Shown piece by piece: positions 1-14,331 of a stretch of 64,000 bases of DNA. Source of the DNA: Cellulomonas gilvus ATCC 13127 (lineage in GTDB: Bacteria > Actinomycetota > Actinomycetes > Actinomycetales > Cellulomonadaceae); the NCBI RefSeq assembly GCF_000218545.1, contig NC_015671.1:868001-932000 (forward strand). The letters are read 5' to 3'. The notes beneath the pieces are model-generated. The model was not told where the DNA came from, ran no database searches, and saw nothing but the letters and a program-made list of their open reading frames with translations. Numbering within the stretch: the stretch's first letter is position 1; every line of letters starts with the position of its first letter. The position numbers were made by a program, and so were the translations under genes.

Positions 1-255
1 CGCGATCGCCTCGCGGAGCGCGGGCAGGCCCGCGGCAGGCGTGTACCGGTGGTTGACGGGGTCGAGGCACGCGGCGACCGCGGAGTCGACGATCGCCTGC
101 GGGGTCGGGAAGTCCGGCTCGCCCGCCCCGAACCCGATGACGGGCCGGCCGGCCGCCTTGAGGGCCTTCGCCTTCCCGTCGACGGCGAGGGTGGCCGACT
201 CGGCGATGGCGGCGAGGCGGCGGGAGACACGGGGGCGCGACGTCTGCTGGCTCAC
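1..255 (-). CDS. PLP-dependent aminotransferase, N-terminal part (truncated by window edge)
   Basis: The reverse strand from a GTG at 255 reads [20 protein letters not shown] and then a stretch containing [12 protein letters not shown] and [18 protein letters not shown]. The [10 protein letters not shown] segment and the [13 protein letters not shown] segment are the N-terminal signatures of fold-type I class I aminotransferases of the aspartate/aromatic type. About 85 residues are visible; the lysine that binds PLP lies outside the window. A PLP aminotransferase (often annotated aspC) sits at this place, divergent from tRNA-Trp-secE-nusG, in many actinobacteria. The exact substrate cannot be judged from this fragment. 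Confidence 0.85.
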
Positions 256-329
256 CGGGCCATAGTGGCAGAGGTCACGCCGTGCGGGTGCCGCGATCCC
301 ACGCCGTCCGGCTCGGCGGCACGGGCGGG

Positions 330-359
330 TTCGACCCTGGGCGCGACGTCCCGTACAGT
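330..359 (+). promoter_or_regulatory. Putative promoter of tRNA-Trp/secE/nusG
   Basis: A TTCGAC (-35-like) hexamer at 330-335 is followed after 18 bp by TACAGT (-10-like) at 354-359. Transcription would start near 366, about 87 nt before the tRNA. This is a visual match to the housekeeping consensus only. Confidence 0.45.
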
Positions 360-452
360 GGTCCACCGGCGGTTGACGTTCGCCAAGATGACCTGTGCCC
401 GCAGCGCCTCACGGCGGCGGGCGGGGGATCCTTGGCGGGCACCGATCGTCGT

Positions 453-525
453 AGGGCAGTGGCGCAAGTGGTAGCGCAGCGGTCTCCAAAACCGCAGGTT
501 GCAGGTTCGAGTCCTGTCTGCCCTG
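453..525 (+). tRNA. tRNA-Trp (anticodon CCA)
   Basis: A full cloverleaf can be folded by eye. The acceptor AGGGCAG (453-459) pairs with CTGCCCT (518-524), with discriminator G525. The D-stem is GCGC (462-465) with GCGC (474-477). The anticodon stem is GCGGT (479-483) with ACCGC (491-495), around the loop CTCCAAA with anticodon CCA at 486-488. The T-stem is GCAGG/CCTGT around TTCGAGT. CCA is not encoded. A tRNA-Trp directly before secE is the usual actinobacterial arrangement. Confidence 0.97.
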
Positions 526-592
526 CGCAGTTCCGTGTTCCCGGATCGTCTGGTCCGGCCTTCCATGTACCGACGAGACGCAGAGGCATGAC

Positions 593-889
593 GTGAGCGA
601 AACAGCAGCCTCCGCGGCGTCCGGCGCCGAGGACTCGGCTCCGCGCACGTCCGCGCCGAAGGCCTCGGGCACGCCCGCTCGACCGGGTGAGCGCCGCGGG
701 CTGTTCGCGCGCATCGCGCTGTTCGTCCGTCAGGTCGTCGCGGAGCTCAAGAAGGTCGTGCGGCCGACCAGGTCCGACCTCGTCACCTACACGAGCGTCG
801 TGCTGGTGTTCGTCGCCGTGGTCATGGCGTTCGTCACCGTGCTCGACCTCGGCCTCGGCAAGGTCACCTTCTGGGTCTTCGGGGGCTGA
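593..889 (+). CDS. secE: Preprotein translocase subunit SecE
   Basis: Small integral membrane subunit of the SecYEG protein-export channel. The 98-residue product has a Ser/Ala/Pro-rich N-terminal tail, then the amphipathic helix conserved in SecE (FVRQVVAELKKVVRPTRSDL), then one transmembrane helix (about residues 67-90, YTSVVLVFVAVVMAFVTVLD). The GTG start at 593 is the only start that keeps the usual length for the single-helix form. It lies 68 nt after tRNA-Trp and 72 nt before nusG, the standard secE-nusG pair. Confidence 0.95.
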   Translation: MSETAASAASGAEDSAPRTSAPKASGTPARPGERRGLFARIALFVRQVVAELKKVVRPTRSDLVTYTSVVLVFVAVVMAFVTVLDLGLGKVTFWVFGG

Positions 890-961
890 CCCCTCGGGGC
901 CGTCGTCGGCCCGCCGCTCGCCCGTACCGGGCCGCCCCATCGTCGAAGAAAGCAGGATCGC

Positions 962-1780
962 GTGTCGCACGAGTCGTCTGAGCCCACGTCGGCCGAGCTC
1001 GAGCTCGAGGACGCCCTCGAGTCGGTCGAAGGCGTCGAGGCGTCCGTCGACGAGCCCGCCGACACCGACGAGGCCGCGCCTGCCGCGGACGAGGCCGCGC
1101 CCGTCGCGTCCGACGAGGCACCGGAGTCCGACGAGGCCGATGAGGCCTCGGCCGAGGACGCGGACGAGATCGACCCCGACGAGGACCCCGTCGCGGCGTT
1201 CAAGTCGAAGCTGCGCAGCCTGCCGGGCGACTGGTTCGTCATCCACTCCTACGCGGGTTACGAGAACCGCGTGAAGGCGAACCTCGAGAACCGCACGCAG
1301 AGCCTCAACATGGAGGACTTCATCTACCAGGTGGAGGTCCCCATGGAGGAGGTCGTCGAGATCAAGAACGCGCAGCGCAAGGTCGTCAAGCGCGTGCGCA
1401 TCCCCGGCTACGTCCTGGTCCGCATGGACCTGACCGACGAGTCGTGGGGTGCCGTGCGGCACACGCCCGGCGTGACGGGCTTCGTCGGCCACACGCACCA
1501 GCCGGTGCCGCTGACGCTCGACGAGGTGTTCTCGATGCTCGCCCCGACGCTCGAGGTCAAGTCGGCGTCCGCGCCGGCCGCCGCGGCCAAGGCCGCCGCG
1601 AAGATCCAGGTGGACTTCACGGTCGGCGAGTCGGTCACCGTCACCGACGGCCCCTTCGACACGCTGCCCGCCACGATCTCGGAGATCAACGCGGAGAACC
1701 AGAAGCTCAAGGTGCTCGTCTCCATCTTCGGCCGGGAGACCCCGGTCGAGCTGTCGTTCAGCCAGGTCGCCAAGATCTGA
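962..1780 (+). CDS. nusG: Transcription termination/antitermination protein NusG
   Basis: NusG binds RNA polymerase and modulates elongation, pausing and Rho termination. The C-terminal two thirds is a standard NusG: the NGN domain starts at [20 protein letters not shown], and the KOW domain begins near [19 protein letters not shown] and ends SFSQVAKI. The GTG start at 962 gives 272 residues with an N-terminal extension of about 80 residues made almost only of Asp, Glu, Ala, Ser and Val. Such acidic extensions occur in actinobacterial NusG. A later start would remove the tail but nothing supports one. Confidence 0.96.
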
Positions 1781-1875
1781 CGGCACGGCATCGCGGGCGG
1801 CGCCGGTCGGCGTCGCCCACTGCAACCGGGTCATCGCCCACGGCGTAGGCCCACGAGAAGGAAAGGGACGGCGTC

Positions 1876-2307
1876 ATGCCCCCCAAGAAGAAGGTCACCG
1901 GCCTCATCAAGCTCCAGATCAACGCCGGTGCGGCCACGCCCGCCCCGCCGATCGGCCCCGCGCTCGGTCAGCACGGCGTGAACATCATGGAGTTCTGCAA
2001 GGCGTACAACGCGGCGACCGAGTCGCAGCGCGGCAACGTCATCCCCGTCGAGATCACCGTGTACGAGGACCGCTCGTTCACGTTCATCACGAAGACGCCG
2101 CCGGCCGCCGAGCTCATCAAGAAGGCCGCGGGCGTCGCCAAGGGCTCGTCCACGCCGCACACGGTCAAGGTCGCCACCCTGACCCGTGCGCAGGTCCGTG
2201 AGATCGCGAGCACCAAGCTCGAGGAGCTCAACGCGAACGACCTCGAGGCCGCCGAGAAGACCATCGCGGGCACCGCTCGCTCGATGGGCATCACGGTCGA
2301 GGGCTGA
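1876..2307 (+). CDS. rplK: 50S ribosomal protein L11
   Basis: Component of the GTPase-associated centre of the large subunit, binding 23S rRNA near the L10-L12 stalk. The 143-residue product shows the N-terminal [22 protein letters not shown] motif region and the RNA-binding C-terminal domain ending [18 protein letters not shown]. The ATG start follows GAAGGAAAGGGA. It is followed by rplA in the usual L11-L1 pair. Confidence 0.97.
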
Positions 2308-2438
2308 CCGCACGGTCACCCCGGCCGGTCGGAGACGACCGGCACCCTCCCCCCGGGCGACCTGCCCGGTGGGGACCCCAGTGGCAGGGCCGTGTGCGGC
2401 CCATGACGACCACGACTGCTGACAAGGAGAACAAGCAG

Positions 2439-3158
2439 ATGGCGAAGCACAGCAAGGCGTACCGCGCCGCCGCCGAGAAGATCGAGGACGGCAAGCTCTA
2501 CGCGCCGCTCGAGGCCGTCCGCCTCGCGCAGGCCACCTCGACGACGAAGTACGACGCGACCGTCGAGATCGCCTTCCGCCTCGGGGTGGACCCCCGCAAG
2601 GCCGACCAGATGGTCCGTGGCACGGTCAACCTGCCCCACGGCACGGGCAAGACCGCCCGCGTGATCGTCTTCGCGACGGGTGAGCGTGCCGAGCAGGCCC
2701 GCGCGGCCGGCGCCGACGAGGTCGGTGGCGACGAGCTGATCGAGAAGGTCGCGGCCGGTTACACCGACTTCGACTCCGCGGTCGCGACCCCTGACCTCAT
2801 GGGCAAGGTCGGTCGACTCGGCAAGGTGCTGGGCCCGCGTGGTCTGATGCCGAACCCGAAGACCGGCACCGTGACGATGGACGTGGCCAAGGCCGTCGCC
2901 GACATCAAGGGCGGCAAGATCGAGTTCCGCGTCGACCGTCACGCGAACCTGCACTTCATCATCGGCAAGACGTCGTTCTCCGACGTCCAGCTGGTGGAGA
3001 ACTACGCCGCCGCGCTCGACGAGATCCTGCGTCTCAAGCCGTCCGCGTCGAAGGGCCGCTACATCACCAAGGCGACCATCTCGACCACGAACGGCCCGGG
3101 CATCGCGCTCGACCAGAACAAGACGCGCAACCTGACGTCGGAGGACGAGGCGGCCTGA
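2439..3158 (+). CDS. rplA: 50S ribosomal protein L1
   Basis: Forms the L1 stalk that helps release deacylated tRNA from the E site; in many bacteria it also represses its own mRNA. The 239-residue product begins [15 protein letters not shown] and contains the L1 signature [19 protein letters not shown]. An upstream in-frame ATG exists, but the ATG at 2439 is preceded by AAGGAG (2424-2429) at ideal spacing and matches the family N-terminus. Last gene of this block before the hairpin at 3198-3231. Confidence 0.97.
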
Positions 3159-3197
3159 GCCACCTCGCCCCCGGCTCGTCCTGAGCCCGCGTCGAAC

Positions 3198-3231
3198 GAA
3201 GGCCCGGCCCCGCGAGGGGGACCGGGCCTTC
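3198..3231. terminator. Bidirectional terminator hairpin between rplA and the convergent protease gene
   Basis: GAAGGCCCGG (3198-3207) pairs with CCGGGCCTTC (3222-3231). On the - strand the flank supplies short U-runs. It lies between two converging genes, 40 nt after the rplA stop and 14 nt from the protease stop. Confidence 0.8.
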
Positions 3232-3244
3232 GTCGTGCGGTCCG

Positions 3245-5014
3245 TCAGACGCGGCCGGTGCCGCGTCCGCGTCGCTGCGCGGCCTGCCACGCCGCCGCGG
3301 CGCGACGCCGGACGTCCCTGCTCGCCGCGAGGTACGCCGCTCGGTAGGCCGCCTGGTACGCCGCCGCGTAGGCAGCCCGTGCTGCGGCCACCGCGGTGGA
3401 TCGTGTGCTCATGCCCATGCCTGCGCGCACGCCCGCGACGTACGCGCCCCGGAGCGCGCGGCTCCCCGCTGCGCTCGCCGAGCCCGCATGCCCGCTGAAC
3501 GCCCCGCCGGACGCCCCGCTGAACGCCCCGCCGGACGCTCCGGTGAAGGGCTCCGTGAACGGTTCGGTGAAGGGTTCGGTGAACGGGTTCGCGCCGAGTG
3601 CTTCGGTGAACGGCTCCGTGAACGGTTCGGTGAACGGCTCCGTGAACGGCTCGGTGAAGGGTTCGGTGAACGGGTTCGCGCCGAGTGCTTCGGTGAACGG
3701 CTCCGTGAACGGTTCGGTGAACGGCTCCGTGAAGGGTTCGGTGAACGGCTCCGTGAACGGCTCGGTGAAGGGTTCGGTGAACGGGTTCGCGCCGAGCGCC
3801 TCGGTGAACGGCTCCGTGAACGGCTCCGTGAAGGGCTCGGTGAACGGTTCGGTGAAGGGCTCGGTGAACGGCTGCGCCGAGGTCCTGCCGGCTGCTGCTG
3901 ACCGGGGCGCCCCCTGCGCGTCCCGGTCAGCAGCGCGGCCCGCAGGCCTGGTCGGCGCGGTACCGCTGCGGCCACCCGCCCACCCCCAGGGGGTGGTGGT
4001 CGGCGCACCCGGTCGGGGCCGCTCGGTGGCCACCGCGACGCCGAGCATGCCGAGCACGGCGCCGATGGGGCTCGCCACGGAGAAGCTGCCGTCGTCCTCG
4101 CCGGCCCACAGCAGGCCGACCACGGCGCCGTCCTCGTCGACCAGGACGGAGCCCGAGTCGCCGCCCGCGGAGAACCGCTCGACGCCGTCCGCGGGCTCGA
4201 CCCGGATCTGGTCGCGCAACGTGCGCCACCCGACGCCGGGCCCGAAGTCGACGGACGTCGTGTAGTCGGTGGACACCACGGTCCCGACCGTGACGCCGGT
4301 CGTGCGCCCGGACTTGCGCACCCGCGCGCCCTCGCGGGCCTCGGCGGCGCCGCTCACGGGGCCGATGCCGACGATCCCGGGCACCCATGCCGCTCCGGGT
4401 GCGAGCGCTACGACGGCGGCGTCCACCCGGTCGGTCAGGGCACCGCGCACGAGCGCGCCGAACCGGTCGCGGGGCGTGCCGTCGTCGGCGATCGCGGGCT
4501 GGATCCAGCTGCTGCCGGGGTCCTCGAGGCCGTCGCCGGCGGCGACGTGCCAGTTCGTGAGCGCGAACGCACGGCCGGTGTGCCGCTCGCGCACGACGAC
4601 GCCGAGCGTGCCGTTGACGCTGCGCAGCGACGCCGCGCCGTCCACGGGTACGGTCACGGCGTCCGCCGGGCCGATGCTGATGCCGCCCGCCAGCGGCCGC
4701 ACGCGCGACGTGTGCAGGTCGGGCGCCTCGGAGCGGTCCGTCGCGAGCGGGGAGACGCGGCGTTCGACGACGTCGGTGAGGACGCCGTCGATCGTCGGGG
4801 GGATGCGCTCGTCGTCGGCGAGCTCGTCGGTGGCCCGTTTGTGCGCGACGTGCACGACGATCGCCTGGTGCCCGGTGGGCGAGCCGCCCGACCACTTCTC
4901 GGCGATGTCGACGCCGATCACGCCGGCCCGCGCCAGCAGGAGGTCCTCGACCCCGCGCTTCGTCGGGCGGATGCGCTCGCGCTCGTCGGCGCCGGTCGGG
5001 TGCTGATCGCTCAT
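3245..5014 (-). CDS. Trypsin-like serine peptidase with a C-terminal PFTE tetrapeptide-repeat tail
   Basis: The 589-residue protein has no signal peptide or membrane helix, so it is probably cytoplasmic unless exported by another route. Residues about 10-375 form a chymotrypsin-fold S1-type peptidase: NWHVAAGD gives the catalytic His156, RVDAAVVAL the likely Asp198, and FSAGGDSGSV the nucleophile Ser287. Residues 382-492 are 24 copies of PFTE (the last is PFTG) in blocks of 6, 8, 6 and 4 separated by three ALGAN spacers. Then come two copies of ASGGAFSG and a basic, Ala/Tyr/Arg-rich helical tail (AAYAAAYQAAYRAAYLAA) ending in Arg-rich sequence. The ATG at 5014 has GAGGAG at 5024-5029. It is divergent from the sigma factor/CHAT operon 283 bp away, which suggests shared function. 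The peptidase call is firm; substrate and role are unknown. Confidence 0.85.
   Translation of the reverse strand: MSDQHPTGADERERIRPTKRGVEDLLLARAGVIGVDIAEKWSGGSPTGHQAIVVHVAHKRATDELADDERIPPTIDGVLTDVVERRVSPLATDRSEAPDLHTSRVRPLAGGISIGPADAVTVPVDGAASLRSVNGTLGVVVRERHTGRAFALTNWHVAAGDGLEDPGSSWIQPAIADDGTPRDRFGALVRGALTDRVDAAVVALAPGAAWVPGIVGIGPVSGAAEAREGARVRKSGRTTGVTVGTVVSTDYTTSVDFGPGVGWRTLRDQIRVEPADGVERFSAGGDSGSVLVDEDGAVVGLLWAGEDDGSFSVASPIGAVLGMLGVAVATERPRPGAPTTTPWGWAGGRSGTAPTRPAGRAADRDAQGAPRSAAAGRTSAQPFTEPFTEPFTEPFTEPFTEPFTEALGANPFTEPFTEPFTEPFTEPFTEPFTEPFTEPFTEALGANPFTEPFTEPFTEPFTEPFTEPFTEALGANPFTEPFTEPFTEPFTGASGGAFSGASGGAFSGHAGSASAAGSRALRGAYVAGVRAGMGMSTRSTAVAAARAAYAAAYQAAYRAAYLAASRDVRRRAAAAWQAAQRRGRGTGRV
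3539..3871 (-). repeat. 12-bp-period tandem repeat encoding (PFTE)n with ALGAN spacers
   Basis: 333 bp, in frame with the peptidase gene. Counting units of the type CCGTTCACCGAG on the coding strand gives 24 units in groups of 6, 8, 6 and 4 (N- to C-terminal). The 15-bp spacers encode ALGAN. Units differ mainly at third codon positions, and the spacers are almost identical, so the array grew both by single units and by duplication of whole unit-plus-spacer blocks. It is not a CRISPR array. Confidence 0.95.
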
Positions 5015-5223
5015 CGGTGGGTGCTCCTCGTGCGTGGGAACCGTCGTCCGGGGCTGGACCGCTCGTCAGGAGCGGCCGGTGGCCGTGCTGATACGTCGCG
5101 CCGCAGGCCGGCGCACATTCACCCCGACGGGTGATTTGTGATGCGCACGGGGACCGCGGCGTATCTGGCACCGTCGAGGTCGTTCCTTGCGCACGTGCAC
5201 GACCGGGGGATCGCATGACCACC

Positions 5224-5253
5224 TTGTCGTGTTTGTCCAGGCCGTCCTAGTGT
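5224..5253 (+). promoter_or_regulatory. Putative promoter of the sigma factor/CHAT operon
   Basis: TTGTCG at 5224-5229 and TAGTGT at 5248-5253 are separated by 18 bp. Transcription would start near 5260, leaving a short leader before the ATG at 5297 with GAGGGG upstream. Whether the adjacent sigma factor itself reads this promoter cannot be told. Confidence 0.45.
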
Positions 5254-5296
5254 GACGAGGCGGCCGCCCGACGAGGCCAGGCGAGTGAGGGGCCAG

Positions 5297-5929
5297 ATGA
5301 TGAGTGACGACCTGGTGGAGCCGGTGGACACCGCGCTCCGAGGCCAGGGGGAGGGGCTCGCCGACCAGGCGGCCCGGGCCGTGATCGCGTACCGCGAGGG
5401 CGACAGCGCACCCATGGCCGCCCTGGTGCAGGTGATGACCCCCCTGCTCTGGCACACCGTGCGCGCCCAGGGTGCGGACGTGGAGACCGCGCAGGACGTG
5501 GTGCAGAGCGTCTGGCTGTCCCTCGTCCGGGAGATCGAGACGATCCGTGATCCGCGCGCGACGCTGCAGTGGACGCTCGTGACCGCGAAGCGCGCCGCGT
5601 GGCGTGCGGTGCGGCGTGCGCGGGACGAGCAGGCGCGCACGGACGGCGACGAGGCGGCGACGCTGTGGCTCGCCGCGCCGGCCGACCAGCTGCCCGAGCA
5701 GCAGGCGGTGCGCGACGAGCGGGACCGCGTCCTGTGGGAGCACGTGCGCTCGCTCCCCGAGCGGTGCCGCCGGCTGCTGGGCCTGGTCGCGCTCGTGGAC
5801 CGGCCGGACTACACCGTGGTGTCGCAGGCGCTGGGCATGCCGGTCGGGAGCATCGGGCCGACCCGTGGCCGGTGCCTGGCGAAGCTGCGGGTCTCGTTGT
5901 CCTCCGATCCCACCTGGAGCCTGTCATGA
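5297..5929 (+). CDS. ECF-like RNA polymerase sigma factor
   Basis: Directs RNA polymerase to a specific promoter set. The 210-residue product has a sigma-2 region (about residues 30-95, with DVETAQDVVQSVWLSLVREI and LQWTLVTAKRAAWRAVRRAR) and a sigma-4 helix-turn-helix near the C-terminus (LPERCRRLLGL followed by YTVVSQALGMPVGSIGPTRG). Sigma-1 and sigma-3 regions are absent, as in ECF/group 4 factors. The preferred start is the tandem ATG at 5297/5300 after GAGGGG; a GTG at 5252 would overlap the likely -10. Its stop overlaps the start of the next gene (ATGA), so the genes are translationally coupled. No classical membrane anti-sigma factor is visible; the next two genes take that position. 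Confidence 0.85.
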   Translation: MMSDDLVEPVDTALRGQGEGLADQAARAVIAYREGDSAPMAALVQVMTPLLWHTVRAQGADVETAQDVVQSVWLSLVREIETIRDPRATLQWTLVTAKRAAWRAVRRARDEQARTDGDEAATLWLAAPADQLPEQQAVRDERDRVLWEHVRSLPERCRRLLGLVALVDRPDYTVVSQALGMPVGSIGPTRGRCLAKLRVSLSSDPTWSLS

Positions 5930-6429
5930 CTCCCGACGACGCCACGCTGTCCCTGGTCGCGGCCGCCCCGGTCGACGAGCTCGACGTGGAGATGCTCGGT
6001 CGCCTGGCCGAGCTCGTGAACGCCGCCGACCCCGTGCCGGACGGGCTCGTGGACCGCATCGGCATGGCGCTCACGATCGAGGCGCTGCACGCCGAGCTCG
6101 CGGAGCTGCGGCTCGTCGGCGAGCCCGCGCTCGCGGTCCGGGCCGACGAGACCAGCATCGAGGCGGGGACGATCACGTTCACGACCGACGTGCTGACGGT
6201 CATGATCTCGGTCCACCACGAGAACGACCGCGTCCGCATCGACGGGTGGGCGGCCCCGGCTGGTGAGCTCGCGGTCGAGCTGCACCAGACGGGCAGCGTC
6301 ACGACGACCCGCTCCGACTCCGACGGGCGCTTCGCGTTCGTCGAGATCGGGCGCGGCCCCGCGCGCCTCGTGCTGCGCCGGCCGGAGGAGCCGAGCATGC
6401 CCGTCGTGACGCCGCAGATCGAGCTCTAG
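5926..6429 (+). CDS. Unknown small protein with C-terminal carboxypeptidase-regulatory-like beta-sandwich
   Basis: The 167-residue product starts at ATG 5926, overlapping the sigma factor stop by 4 nt. Residues about 1-60 are acidic and helical (DELDVEMLGRLAELVNAADP), typical of a short docking or anti-sigma-like segment but with no recognisable zinc motif. Residues about 75-160 are beta-rich (FTTDVLTVMISVHHENDRVRI, then TTTRSDSDGRFAFVEIGRGPARLVLRR), resembling the CarboxypepD_reg fold by its SDSDGRFxFxxI pattern. No signal peptide. By position it may regulate the sigma factor or link it to the CHAT protein; that is inference. Confidence 0.65.
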   Translation: MTPDDATLSLVAAAPVDELDVEMLGRLAELVNAADPVPDGLVDRIGMALTIEALHAELAELRLVGEPALAVRADETSIEAGTITFTTDVLTVMISVHHENDRVRIDGWAAPAGELAVELHQTGSVTTTRSDSDGRFAFVEIGRGPARLVLRRPEEPSMPVVTPQIEL

Positions 6430-6436
6430 TCGCGCC

Positions 6437-9070
6437 GTGGACTCTGCTCGCGGCGCGTCCGCGGCCGGCGCACCGGCGGGCGGCGCAGGTCGCCCGCCGG
6501 TGCTCGACCGGATCGCGGTCGAGGTCGCGCGCGCGGAGACGGACAACGCCGAGGGTCATCCGGGCCAGGCGCGGCGACGGCTGGTCGCGGCGCTCGCCGA
6601 GCTCGACCGGATCGACGACGGCTCGCTCGACGACGGGTTCGTGGTGCGGGTAAGGGCGCGTGCGCTCATGGAGCTCGCGAAGTGCGAGTTCGAGGTGCGG
6701 GGCGGGCCGCAGGCCGCGCTCGCGCGGCTGGACGCGCTCGTGGCGGCCGGGGCAGCGGCGTCGTGGCCCGGTGTCGTGCCGGCGGTCGCGGGCGTGCGCG
6801 GGCTGCTGGCGCTGCGGGCGGGCCGCCAGGAGGACGCGCTGGCCGCGCTCGACGCCGCGGTCGCGCAGATCGACGTCGCGGATGCCGTGGACGGGTGCCG
6901 TGCGCTGCTCAACCGCGGCACGCTGCACAGCGAGCGCCGGGACGTCGTCGCCGCGCGCGCGGACTACGAGGAGTGCGCGCGGCGCGCACGTGCGGCGGGG
7001 TTCGACCTGCTCGTGTTCAAGGCGGAGCACAACCTGGGCTACGTGCACTTCCGTGCCGGACGGCTGCCGGAGGCGCTCGCGAGCATGGAGGGTGCGGCCC
7101 GCAGCCTGCCGGGTCCCGAGCGGCCGACCGCGCTGCGGGACCGGAGCGAGGTGCTGCTCGAGGCCGGTCTGGTCGGCGTCGCGGACGAGACGCTGGCGCG
7201 TGCGGCGGCGCTGTTCGCAGCCGAGCGGCTGCCCCGCGAGGTGGCGGAGTGCGAGCTCGGCCGGGCCGAGTGCGCGCTCCTGCGGGGTGACCCGGTGGCG
7301 GCGCGCGAGTGGGCCGGGAGCGCCCGGCGCCGGTTCCAGCGGCGGGGCGACGACGCGTGGGTGGTGCGGTCCGCGCTGCTCGCGCTGCAGGCCGACGCGG
7401 CAGTGTTCGCACAGCTGCCCGAGGGCCGGGCGCGCAGCGCAGGGTGGTCGGGCGTCGCGCGCCGCGCGGCCGAGGTCGAGGAGCTGTGCCGGGCGACGGG
7501 CCGCCCCACGTGGCAGCGCTCGGCCTCCTACCTGCGCATCGAGGCCGACCTCGCACGCGGCAAGGGACCGGATGCGCGGCGCGTGCTCGACGGCCTGGGC
7601 CCCGTCCATCCCGACGAGCCGCTCACGCTGCGCCTGCACGGCCGGCGCATCCGGGCGCTCCTGGCGGTGGCCGCAGGGCAGCAGGACCGCGCCGCGCACC
7701 ACGTCCGGGCGGGTCAGCGGGACCTGGTGCTGCACCGCAGCCGGTTCGGCTCGCTCGACCTGCGCACCGCGGGCGCGGTGCACGGTCGCGCGCTCGCGGA
7801 CGTGGACATGCGCCTCGCGCTCGGCACGGGTGACCCCGAGGCGGTGCTCGAGTCCGTCGAGCGCGTGCGCGCGGTGATGGGCGGTGCGCCGCGGGTCAAC
7901 CCGCCGGGCGACCCGCGCACGGCGGAGCTGCTCACGGACCTGCGCCGCCTGGTGGAAGGCAGCAGGCCGGTCACGGGCCGGCCGCAGGCGGACCCGGAGC
8001 GGGTGCGGCTCATCGCGGATGCGCAGCGGCTCAAGCTCGAGATCCTGGCGCGGTCCTGGCACGAGCCCGGGCAGGCGGGCGACGACCGGGAGGGCCGTGC
8101 GCACGAGGCGCGCGTGGTCCTGGAGCGGCGCGCGGGTGCGGTGCTGCTGGACGTCATCGAGCACCACGGCGAGCTGCTCGCGGTGCAGATGGACGCGGAC
8201 GGCGCGCAGCTGCACCAGCTGGGCGACGCCGCACCGGCCGCGGAGCTGGTGCGGCGTGCGCACGCGGACCTCGAGGTCCTCGCCAACCCTCTGGTGCCCG
8301 CCGAGCTGCGCGCGGTGGCGCAGCGTTCGCTGTCGGTCGCGCTCGACGGGCTCGACGCGGTGCTGGCGCGCGTCGTCCGCGTGCCGGACGAGCTCACGGT
8401 CGTCGCGGGAGGGTGGCTCGGCGTGCTGCCGTGGGCGATGCTGCCGTCGCGCACCGCGTTGCCGACGCTCGTCGCGCCCTCGGTCTACCACTGGATGCGC
8501 TACGCGGGCGCGGGCCTGCCGAGCGCGCCCGTCACGACGGCGGCGGGCCCGGGGCTGCGGCACGCGGACGACGAGGCCACGCGCGTGGCGAGCCTGTGGC
8601 CCGGGGCGCGGGCCCTGGTCGGGCAGGACGCGAGCGTCGCGGCGGTGTCCGACGCGCTCGCGGCCCCCGGGATCGTGCACCTGGCGGCGCACGGCCGGCA
8701 CGAGCCCGACAACCCGCTGTTCTCCTCGCTCCGCCTGGCGGACGGGCCGCTGTTCGCGCACGAGCTGGACGCCGGGGGAGACGTGCCGGACCTCGTCGTC
8801 CTGTCGTCGTGCGAGGTGGGCCGGTCCACCATCCGCGCGGGCGGTGAGGCGCTGGGCCTCGCGAGCGTGCTGCTGCGCACGGGTGTGGCGTGCGTGGTGG
8901 CGGCGATCGCGCCCCTGCCGGACGAGACGGCGATGCTCGTGATGACGGACGTGCACGCGCGCCTGCGTGCGGGTGCGCCCGTCGCGGCGGCCGTCGCGGC
9001 GGCGTGCGCGGCGGAGCAGGAGCGTGCGGGCGTGCACGTGCCGCTGCTGTGCCTGGGGGCGCCGGTCTGA
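6437..9070 (+). CDS. TPR-repeat protein with C-terminal CHAT (caspase-like) peptidase domain
   Basis: The 877-residue product starts at GTG 6437, 7 nt after the upstream stop. Residues about 20-450 are Ala/Arg/Leu-rich helical repeats with TPR-type spacing (LNRGTLHSERRDVVAARADYEECARRA; NLGYVHFRAGRLPEALASME). Residues about 590-877 form a CHAT domain: the catalytic His lies in VHLAAHGRHEPDNP (His752) and the Cys in VVLSSCEVG (Cys792), followed by the ASVLLRTGVACVVAAIAP segment typical of the family. CHAT proteins are clan CD (caspase/separase) cysteine peptidases often activated by a partner that binds the repeats. No signal peptide. Third gene of the sigma factor operon, opposite a trypsin-like peptidase. 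Confidence 0.88.
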   Translation: MDSARGASAAGAPAGGAGRPPVLDRIAVEVARAETDNAEGHPGQARRRLVAALAELDRIDDGSLDDGFVVRVRARALMELAKCEFEVRGGPQAALARLDALVAAGAAASWPGVVPAVAGVRGLLALRAGRQEDALAALDAAVAQIDVADAVDGCRALLNRGTLHSERRDVVAARADYEECARRARAAGFDLLVFKAEHNLGYVHFRAGRLPEALASMEGAARSLPGPERPTALRDRSEVLLEAGLVGVADETLARAAALFAAERLPREVAECELGRAECALLRGDPVAAREWAGSARRRFQRRGDDAWVVRSALLALQADAAVFAQLPEGRARSAGWSGVARRAAEVEELCRATGRPTWQRSASYLRIEADLARGKGPDARRVLDGLGPVHPDEPLTLRLHGRRIRALLAVAAGQQDRAAHHVRAGQRDLVLHRSRFGSLDLRTAGAVHGRALADVDMRLALGTGDPEAVLESVERVRAVMGGAPRVNPPGDPRTAELLTDLRRLVEGSRPVTGRPQADPERVRLIADAQRLKLEILARSWHEPGQAGDDREGRAHEARVVLERRAGAVLLDVIEHHGELLAVQMDADGAQLHQLGDAAPAAELVRRAHADLEVLANPLVPAELRAVAQRSLSVALDGLDAVLARVVRVPDELTVVAGGWLGVLPWAMLPSRTALPTLVAPSVYHWMRYAGAGLPSAPVTTAAGPGLRHADDEATRVASLWPGARALVGQDASVAAVSDALAAPGIVHLAAHGRHEPDNPLFSSLRLADGPLFAHELDAGGDVPDLVVLSSCEVGRSTIRAGGEALGLASVLLRTGVACVVAAIAPLPDETAMLVMTDVHARLRAGAPVAAAVAAACAAEQERAGVHVPLLCLGAPV

Positions 9071-9107
9071 GCCACGTGCGGCCTCCCGCGGGCGGCTGAG
9101 CGCCGAT

Positions 9108-9136
9108 TTGGTCGCACGCGTCCCGTCCCGTACTGT
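9108..9136 (+). promoter_or_regulatory. Putative rplJL promoter
   Basis: TTGGTC (9108-9113), a 17-bp spacer, and TACTGT (9131-9136), only 37 bp after the CHAT gene stop. It would give a leader of about 190 nt before rplJ. Confidence 0.55.
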
Positions 9137-9142
9137 TGACGC

Positions 9143-9300
9143 GCCCAAGACCGCCGGTCGTCGGTCCGCTCGTCGGACCTACCGAAGTCCCGCATCACGC
9201 GGGGGCCAGCGCAGGTGAGAGTTCAGCAGGTCGGCACGGTTCGCCCGTGCCGCATGTCGAGCCCCGCGCCTGCGCGGGGCTCTCGTCGTTTCGGGGGATG
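9143..9300 (+). promoter_or_regulatory. Likely ribosomal protein L10 leader (rplJ 5' UTR)
   Basis: The region upstream of rplJ is long and rich in potential stems. The clearest is GAGCCCCGCGC (9259-9269) with GCGCGGGGCTC (9272-9282). Structured leaders at this place bind L10(L12)4 and give autoregulation in many bacteria. The position and the hairpin are visible; identity with the known L10 leader family was not tested. Confidence 0.5.
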
Positions 9301-9330
9301 GGGACCGGCACCACCATCGGAAGGAATGCC

Positions 9331-9861
9331 ATGGCGAGGCCGGACAAGGCAGCCGCCGTCGCGGAGCTCACGGACAAGTTCCGCGAGTCGAACGCGGCCG
9401 TGCTGACCGAGTACCGCGGGCTCACCGTGAAGCAGCTCACGACGCTGCGTCGCGCGCTCGGCGGCAACGCAACCTACGCCGTGGTGAAGAACACGCTGAC
9501 CGCGATCGCGGCCAAGGAAGCCGGCCTGACGGGCCTCGACGACGCGCTTGCGGGCCCGTCGGCGATCGCCTTCGTCACCGGCGACCCGGTCGAGGCCGCG
9601 AAGGGTCTGCGTGACTTCGCCAAGGCGAACCCCGCACTGGTCATCAAGGGGGGCGTCCTCGACGGCCGGCCCCTGACCGCCGCGGAGATCAACAAGCTCG
9701 CGGACCTCGAGTCCCGTGAGGTCCTCCTGGCCAAGGCGGCCGGTGCGATGAAGGCCAAGCTCTACCAGGCTGCCTACGTCTTCACCGCGAACACCGCTCA
9801 GGCCGCTCGCGTCATCGATGCCCTGCGTCAGAAGCAGGAGTCGGAAGGTGCGGCCGCCTGA
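9331..9861 (+). CDS. rplJ: 50S ribosomal protein L10
   Basis: Base of the L12 stalk, anchoring L12 dimers to 23S rRNA. The 176-residue product begins [20 protein letters not shown] and contains [20 protein letters not shown] and [10 protein letters not shown], typical of L10. An upstream in-frame start would extend into the leader; ATG 9331 after GGAAGGA is preferred. rplL follows 96 nt downstream. Confidence 0.97.
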
Positions 9862-9957
9862 CCCGGGCCCCGGCCTGAGCAGCGCACCGCGCACACCCCC
9901 ACATCCCGCTTCCGTCGCACGTCGCGTCGTGGAGCACCGAAGAAAGGAACGCCTCTC

Positions 9958-10350
9958 ATGGCGAAGCTCACCACCGAGGAGCTCATCGAGCAGTTCAAGG
10001 GTCTGACCCTGATCGAGCTGTCCGAGTTCGTGAAGGCCTTCGAGGAGGTCTTCGAGGTCACCGCTGCCGCGCCCGTCGCGGTCGCCGCCGCCCCCGCCGC
10101 GGGTGGCGCGGGTGGCGACGCGCCGGCCGAGGAGGAGAAGGACTCCTTCGACGTCGTGCTCGAGGCCGCCGGCGACAAGAAGATCCAGGTCATCAAGGAG
10201 GTGCGCGCGCTCACGTCGCTCGGCCTCAAGGAGGCCAAGGACCTCGTCGACGAGGCGCCCAAGGCCGTCCTGGAGGGCGTCAACAAGGAGACCGCCGAGA
10301 AGGCCAAGGCGCAGCTCGAGGGCGCCGGCGCGACCGTCACCCTCAAGTGA
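9958..10350 (+). CDS. rplL: 50S ribosomal protein L7/L12
   Basis: Multicopy stalk protein that recruits translational GTPases. The 130-residue product shows the N-terminal dimerisation domain ([26 protein letters not shown]), an Ala/Pro/Gly hinge at about residues 38-60, and the globular C-terminal domain ([20 protein letters not shown]). The ATG follows GAAGGAAACG-type purines. A strong terminator follows. Confidence 0.98.
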
Positions 10351-10395
10351 TCTGACCTCCGCCGCGGCTCGTCCGCGTGCGGAGGACGGCTCGAC

Positions 10396-10435
10396 GCACG
10401 GGCCCGTCACCCTCACCGGGGTGGCGGGCCTGTGC
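10396..10435 (+). terminator. rplJL terminator
   Basis: A stem of 16 pairs (with G-T wobbles) joins 10396-10411 to 10420-10435 around an 8-nt loop. It lies 46 nt after rplL. Confidence 0.75.
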
Positions 10436-10646
10436 CGTGCTCGGGCGGCGGGCCGGGGCGCAGCGTGTGCACGGCGCCCGTGCCCGCACGACTACCGGTG
10501 GCGCCGTCGGTGTGCCACCATGACCGCGGCGACGACGATGTCGCCCGTCGGGCCGAGGGGCCTGACGAGGACGGACCTCCTGGTCGGTGCGCACGACGTG
10601 GTGTCGCACGGCACACTCCGCTGTGCCCAGCCGCGGCCCGGGAGGG

Positions 10647-10675
10647 TGGACTTCCGTCAGAGGGCCGAGTATGCT
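10647..10675 (+). promoter_or_regulatory. rpoBC promoter
   Basis: TGGACT (10647-10652), 17 bp, then TATGCT (10670-10675), among the best -10 matches in the window. The start would be near 10682. Confidence 0.6.
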
Positions 10676-10824
10676 AGCGCTTTGCGCTGGCCTGTGCCCG
10701 CGATCTCATATATCCCGAGTCGGAGCCCGACGTACGTGCGCGTCGTGCCTGCCGGCCTCGTGGCGGGGGATCGCGCCTTGCCAGGCGGCGCAGCGCTGCT
10801 CTCGACCGCAGGGAAGGACCCCTC

Positions 10825-14331
<3,507 letters not shown>

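Follow-up and report, generated by a model that had tools for sequence, protein, structure and literature searches.

A predicted sigma factor–CHAT protease module of Cellulomonas gilvus with a NAL1-like trypsin in place of a subtilase

The window analyzed here is a 64,000-nucleotide stretch of Cellulomonas gilvus ATCC 13127 (NC_015671.1, positions 868,001–932,000), and its subject is a four-gene island between the ribosomal protein genes rplA and rplJ. The island comprises a divergent gene for a trypsin-like serine protease with a tandem-repeat tail and an operon for a sigma factor of the extracytoplasmic function (ECF) type, a small protein, and a tetratricopeptide repeat (TPR) protein with a CHAT protease domain (Table 1). 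A preliminary description had placed a divergent protease and a sigma–small protein–CHAT operon in this gap, and its open reading frames (ORFs), strands, and coordinates were all correct. Sequence comparison identifies it as a form, particular to this lineage, of a sigma-CHAT module of the ECF54 type, in which an S8 subtilase has been swapped for a divergent trypsin resembling plant NARROW LEAF 1 (NAL1). Its flanks (rplK/rplA on one side and rplJ/rplL/rpoB on the other, named from reading of the sequence) recur in relatives, and this conservation of the neighborhood rules out that the arrangement arose by chance.

The sigma gene matched Sigma70_r2 (PF04542, 29.7 bits against a cut-off of 24) and the sigma70-ECF model TIGR02937 (51.9 bits against 42.9); ATG codons lie at 5297 and 5300, the former being the most likely start, and the gene overlaps that of the small protein by 4 bases. 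The CHAT protein exceeded the Pfam cut-off for PF12770 with 88.5 bits. Its proposed His-Cys dyad was confirmed, with H752 in 94/94 aligned rows and C792 in 93/94, the sole gap being a row cut by a contig end. The trypsin-like protein reached 24.3 bits for Trypsin_2, below the cut-off, and matched the Pfam families Nal1_C and NAL1_N weakly, also under their cut-offs; its profile matched structures of plant NARROW LEAF 1 (best 7y77_A, E 2.2e-11). The catalytic triad previously read from the sequence (H156, D198, S287) is present, and none of its three positions varies among 10 aligned sequences, including that of the window. No signal peptide was apparent by eye, no predictor having been run, and the label "cytoplasmic" rests on that inspection.

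Table 1 Features of the island and its borders, with positions in the window
Feature	Position	Strand	Remarks
rplA, left island border	2394..3158	+	gene name from reading of the sequence
Trypsin-like (NAL1-like) serine protease, 589 residues	3245..5014	-	N-terminal domain, S1-type catalytic domain, and repeat tail
PFTE tandem-repeat region, residues 382-491	3542..3871	-	four runs, together holding 23 exact PFTE units
Promoter-like bipartite motif GTATCAG-N14-GCTCC	5069..5094	-	faces the trypsin gene
Promoter-like bipartite motif GTATCTG-N14-GTTCC	5161..5186	+	faces the sigma operon
ECF-type sigma factor gene	5297..5929	+	Sigma70_r2, TIGR02937; start codon inferred
Small protein, 167 residues	5926..6429	+	N-terminal helices and 7-strand beta sandwich
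TPR-CHAT protein, 877 residues	6437..9070	+	dyad H752/C792
rplJ, right island border	9331..9861	+	gene name and start from reading of the sequence

We sampled 121 genomes of the family to which the window belongs. CHAT relatives occurred in 82, and the loci from all 82 were read by tblastn. This gave 87 loci with the window included: 78 of type I (sigma, small protein, CHAT), five of type II, and four with a partial or unlinked CHAT gene (L104, L140, L145, L146), which were excluded from the 78; L147 was dropped as a duplicate. The order sigma–small protein–S8–CHAT was found in 66/78 type-I loci, some with two CHAT copies, and the S8 gene lay inside the operon, between the small protein and CHAT, in 66/66 of them. 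Ten of the 78 had the order trypsin (divergent)–sigma–small protein–CHAT, with no S8 in 10/10. Ribosomal protein genes flanked 68/78 loci on both sides, the other ten having at least one flank unseen in the stretch fetched; L075 had neither flank within 14 kb. The trypsin type was confined to genera g1 (that of the window), g17, and g6, and the S8 type occurred in 14 genera. The window genome contains six S8 genes, none like the module S8 (≤35 bits versus 460–544 for six module S8s). The island had been put forward as a unique pairing of two proteases; as stated this was rejected, because the usual partner in that slot is an S8 subtilase. Nor is the module itself new, since a sigma factor with carboxypeptidase, subtilase, and CHAT neighbors has already been published as the ECF54 context (PMC8999054; this paper and the other two cited below are used from excerpts).

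In a CHAT tree of 94 rows, built by a quick method with support from the Shimodaira-Hasegawa-like approximate likelihood ratio test (SH-aLRT) only and rooted on type II by choice, the ten trypsin loci formed a single clade with support of 100. The S8 loci were its sister group and also occurred further out, through L075 and type II. By parsimony on this tree, S8 would be the older state and trypsin a replacement. We consider this order likely and not proven, because long branches lead to the outer S8 rows. The type II loci (L076–L079, L100) have a sigma factor and small protein of their own, and their S8 is free of repeats; in L076, L077, and L078, from the same genus as the window, the type II set sits in the same rplA–rplJ slot with CHAT divergent, and so the slot itself exchanges modules. 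In loci of genera g7 and g3 (L070, L096, L102, L107, L108, L119, L124, L128, L134, L137, L141, and L143), an S8 that has no repeats by the rule given below is followed by a tandem pair of CHAT genes. A sample drawn from the whole phylum contained the small protein in 27/346 genomes. Eight loci of that sample with a small-protein match had no detected CHAT (L183–L185, L188, L189, L191, L196, L198); in seven of these (not L198), gene calling and simple motifs flagged no protease, some being limited by their contigs. In L184 the small protein is followed by a gene encoding GHGLYPA repeats, which was rejected as a candidate: its product is an AMP-binding enzyme, and the called reading frame probably extends too far.

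Searched with its peptidase portion, the trypsin had matches in 77/121 family genomes. Ten were at least 49% identical (E 4.1e-78 or better), the next best match having E 1.6e-24, and all ten close homologues are those of the ten module loci, divergent beside sigma–small protein–CHAT. Counting co-occurrence of the two proteases had been proposed earlier as a check: 10/10 close trypsins lie beside a CHAT module, and seen from CHAT the trypsin is the minority partner, with 10/78 loci. A scan of named genomes gave a wider view: among the matches listed (at least 47 loci), 17 trypsins adjoin sigma–small protein–CHAT (ten Cellulomonas loci lacking S8 and seven loci of Knoellia, Janibacter, and Serinicoccus that also hold S8), and 30 had no detected module, one of them (L218) lying near a contig end. 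Two loci of the phylum-wide sample from other families, L178 (with S8) and L197 (without S8), also have such a trypsin near CHAT. The distant trypsin of L197 (10335-11927, minus strand), which adjoins CHAT with no S8 detected, is interrupted by PHYQA-like repeats between the motifs of its catalytic His and Ser. Together with the repeats and the promoter-like motif described below, these neighborhoods make it very probable that the trypsin is part of the module.

Module trypsins have a tail. Among the matches listed, 16/17 extend at least 100 residues beyond the catalytic domain, the 17th being cut by its contig, and 14/17 contain an aromatic-Trp-small-Gly-aromatic motif in the tail (FWAGY and variants); of the 30 non-module trypsins listed, 28 stop no more than 30 residues after the domain, another is cut, and L218 has a tail with the motif. 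In the family survey the strict motif was present in 6/10 trypsins and FWAGF in one more, and the copy in the window has none. Six trypsins from Knoellia, Janibacter, and an Actinomycetales metagenome-assembled genome (L214, L215, L216, L218, L219, L248) have Cys-rich tails of TRPxxCD-like units ending in YW[AGS]GY.

Tandem repeats are shared by the two protease types. PFT[EQ] arrays were present in 9/10 survey trypsins, the tenth being cut by its contig, and a three-unit codon pattern matched the trypsin gene alone in nine of the ten trypsin genomes and nothing in the tenth (cut); a match at a contig start in G091 was taken as the continuation of the trypsin gene. Across 16 trypsin arrays, 365/404 units were exact PFT[EQ], and successive units showed 548 synonymous versus 114 amino-acid-changing codon differences, the latter count being inflated by one row whose region ran into the catalytic domain. 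The dominance of synonymous differences suggests that the repeat peptide is kept by selection despite drift of the DNA. One fixed rule detected arrays of period 4–8 in 39/66 module S8s from nine genera, with units such as HPFTQS, PYTQPH, HPMYAG, PFTSH, and PYSTPL; F, Y, or W was part of the unit in 35/39, and the array preceded the catalytic Asp motif in 34/34 cases where that motif could be located. In S8 the repeat linker precedes the catalytic domain; in most trypsins it lies between the catalytic domain and an aromatic C-terminal tail. Outside the family, arrays were found by the rule in 10/17 S8 matches of phylum-sample loci with small protein and CHAT and in 5/7 S8s of named genomes, with units including GYGQGV, NPAYQG, and HPFWVG. 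They were absent from all 5 type II S8s, and an array was recovered in 0/13 control S8 genes away from the module (from six of eight genomes searched; three unlinked frames of uncertain identity, L273, L275, and L280, excluded). That an unrelated protease occupies the slot with similar repeats and with the promoter-like signal described next suggests that the repeats, rather than the type of protease, may be what the system recognizes.

Alignment of intergenic regions of Cellulomonas loci revealed a bipartite promoter-like motif, GTATCWG-N14-GYTCC, in both directions, its cores GTATC and GYTCC being separated by 16 bases. The orientation adopted is the one in which GTATC-to-CTCC points toward sigma in S8-type loci and, at other sites, toward small ORFs. 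The window genome had three matches, two of them in the trypsin–sigma gap, and none for the reversed pattern; nine trypsin genomes had 18 matches versus 3 for the reversed control. In a relaxed search (up to one mismatch, spacing 15–17), the motif faced sigma in 19/20 trypsin-type rows and trypsin in 17/20, compared with 38 and 46 of 950 random windows for the two orientations; the 20 rows include two genomes twice (L069/L213 and L063/L207, with identical trypsin domains). Stand-alone trypsins had the motif upstream, in the orientation tested, in 1/29 cases, near the random rate of 28/765. From its position we infer that the motif is recognized by this sigma factor. Since it faces both transcription units, it argues against independent expression of trypsin and operon, and together with the placement of all ten close homologues beside the module it upholds the earlier claim that the trypsin and CHAT proteases are linked. 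The third copy in the window genome (G000:C1:2602369-2602394, minus strand; locus L251) lies ahead of a small ORF containing a LERALRRM-like stretch, and of the other eight trypsin genomes, four have similar small ORFs behind copies of the motif (L252, L253, L254, L258); this small gene is a candidate third member of the regulon.

The small protein scored 21 bits for CarboxypepD_reg (PF13620), under the 32.3-bit cut-off; several close relatives have precomputed PF13620 matches, and its relatives are named carboxypeptidase regulatory-like or transthyretin-like. Its model is a beta sandwich of 7 strands with N-terminal helices. VIA-align matched residues 78-167 with Ig/FN3-like and other sandwiches, and Foldseek gave no match at E ≤0.001. 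We regard the protein as a candidate anti-sigma factor or adaptor. The predicted structure of the CHAT protein resembles separase and Csx29 in fold, and also the anti-sigma factor DdvA; a phmmer comparison with solved structures had no CHAT protein among the matches listed. No membrane segment was apparent by eye in the TPR-CHAT protein. Anti-phage profiles of PADLOC-DB gave nothing significant, the sole hit being BovA, which matched CHAT at E 0.04-0.06.

Several known systems share parts with the island. The context of ECF54 in Actinobacteria conserves carboxypeptidase, subtilase, and CHAT proteins, and proteolytic control has been proposed for it (PMC8999054). By gene neighborhood, both have an ECF sigma factor and carboxypeptidase-regulatory-like and CHAT proteins, but the window lacks the subtilase and instead has the divergent NAL1-like trypsin with repeats. 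In type III-E CRISPR systems (Craspase), Csx29 is reported to cut Csx30, an inhibitor of an ECF-like sigma factor (PMC10028731). The TPR-CHAT protease of the island, with its His-Cys dyad and a modeled Csx29-like fold, appears similar, whereas the second, serine protease sets the island apart, as does a small protein not detectably like Csx30. No Cas7-11 (gRAMP) was among the genes of window positions 1-14000 by the ORF list, the rest of the genome not having been searched for it; the neighbors there are ribosomal protein, nusG, secE, and rpoB genes, named from reading of the sequence. The window genome is assembled as one contig of 3,526,441 bases, and its nearest named relatives are Cellulomonas species. 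The trypsin differs from plant NAL1, which its profile matches, in being bacterial and having a PFTE repeat tail, and CHAT differs from eukaryotic separase in its bacterial operon with a sigma factor. EACC2 systems have caspase-type protease genes near ECF sigma genes and trypsin-like domains at variable positions (eLife 2021; PMC8195603). They are defined by EACC2/caspase and TRADD-N domains, none of which appeared in our Pfam listing, no other search being aimed at them. A partial literature search of titles and abstract openings found no published account of a trypsin replacing the subtilase or of these repeats. The base module has been described before. The swap of protease fold, accompanied by similar repeats and a common promoter-like motif, is well supported by the sequence comparisons and was met in no publication of that search.

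The likeliest mechanism, with a probability of about 0.5, is a cascade from CHAT to the serine protease to the sigma factor. The small helical-plus-beta-sandwich protein would hold the sigma factor. When the TPR superhelix senses a cue, the CHAT active site would become ordered, and CHAT would then capture or cut the serine protease in its repeat linker, cut the small protein, or both. The freed serine protease would destroy the partner of the sigma factor, which, once free, would transcribe its own operon and the protease gene in positive feedback. The repeat array would be the part recognized by the module, and the attached protease fold would then be exchangeable. Cutting by CHAT at one conserved repeat site was weakened as a candidate by arrays without a common P1 residue, and the lack of a common likely P1 favors binding over a single cutting site. 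More tentatively, as an idea we would still bet against, the short, mostly aromatic tandem repeats may be a portable cassette for recognition and activation, read by the separase-like CHAT whatever the attached protease fold.

A number of observations weigh against the cascade and the role it gives to the repeats. Two of the 78 type-I loci (L087 and L088, genus g10) have neither S8 nor trypsin. By the rule, 27/66 module S8s have no repeats, which are therefore not required everywhere; four of the 39 S8 units are without F, Y, or W (PMVQGM, ATIGHT, GHPMTA, GHPKTA), and repeats differ in sequence and period between genomes (PFTE, HPFTQS, HPMYAG, GYGQGV, NPAYQG) with no P1 residue in common. A tail alone is no mark of module membership, because many listed relatives also have long ones: among 120 listed database relatives of the trypsin, whose gene context was unseen, 56 had tails of at least 100 residues, mostly of other kinds, and 6 had the strict motif. 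Counts of tails and modules are not independent either, because module trypsins fall into few clades, with 2 label changes on a trypsin tree from which L246 (cut) was left out. The promoter-like motif had no exact match in 3/9 trypsin genomes (G057, G083, G081). It faced sigma in 24/68 of the other type-I loci (66 S8-type and 2 without protease) and was upstream of sigma in 0/7 S8-plus-trypsin loci, whose operon starts with S8, but an operon-facing copy occurred in the gap before trypsin in 4/8 S8-plus-trypsin rows (one, L242, not a module). Low scores in the predicted local distance difference test (pLDDT) in loops of the CHAT model may merely reflect a 17-sequence alignment. For the small protein, no likeness to Csx30 was detected by sequence profile or in the Foldseek rows shown, and none to an anti-sigma domain.

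Other explanations were weighed as well. The repeats could be flexible linkers with no recognition role, as short P/T/Q-rich or G-rich arrays are easily made by slippage. The changing period and sequence, the repeat-free S8s, and the non-aromatic units all agree with this; the near-exact trypsin units with their predominantly synonymous differences look selected, and arrays were absent from unlinked S8s and mostly aromatic in the module, so that we rate linkers only as less likely than not. It is a little less probable, in our judgment, that CHAT takes a shortcut like that of Craspase, cutting the small protein directly and freeing the sigma factor, with the serine protease a sigma-induced downstream effector and no substrate of CHAT. 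The parts would match those of type III-E once its RNA-guided effector is set aside (TPR-CHAT, small protein, and ECF sigma, as far as the excerpt of PMC10028731 describes them). The overlap of the sigma and small-protein genes, the retention of sigma–small protein–CHAT in L087 and L088 without either protease, and the separate motif copy of the trypsin gene would all suit it, but it leaves unexplained both the similar repeat arrays on two unrelated proteases and the constant position of S8 inside the operon.

Two further alternatives seem to us improbable. TPR-CHAT might itself keep the sigma factor, in the manner of the DdvA that its model resembles, until proteolysis releases it. The dyad, present in 93/93 rows that reach it, speaks instead for a protease that works, inspection by eye shows no membrane segment, and likeness between TPR superhelices is easily met, which together make this reading unlikely. 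Least credible of all is a trypsin with an unrelated job that merely happens to lie in the rplA–rplJ gap. The 30 listed NAL1-like trypsins without a detected module count in favor of such a chance neighbor, but every close homologue in the family sample adjoins the module, a motif pair faces both units, and trypsins adjoin it also in Knoellia, Janibacter, Serinicoccus, L178, and L197.

Switching of ECF54-type sigma factors is, in the excerpt of the source, so far just a proposal (PMC8999054). A natural swap of protease fold that retained the repeats and the promoter-like signal singles out the parts that may matter and gives a small predicted regulon, and with it the cascade from CHAT through a serine protease to sigma becomes directly testable. 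If the cascade is true, the island would be a proteolytic switch in the manner of separase or Craspase, in which the effector protease can be exchanged and whose locus contains nothing of CRISPR. Should the repeats indeed be a cassette, a serine protease of any fold that gained them could plug into the sigma-controlled module; the subtilisin-to-trypsin swap in Cellulomonas would then be a trace of the cassette, and the S8-plus-trypsin loci of Knoellia, Janibacter, and Serinicoccus would represent a two-protease state.
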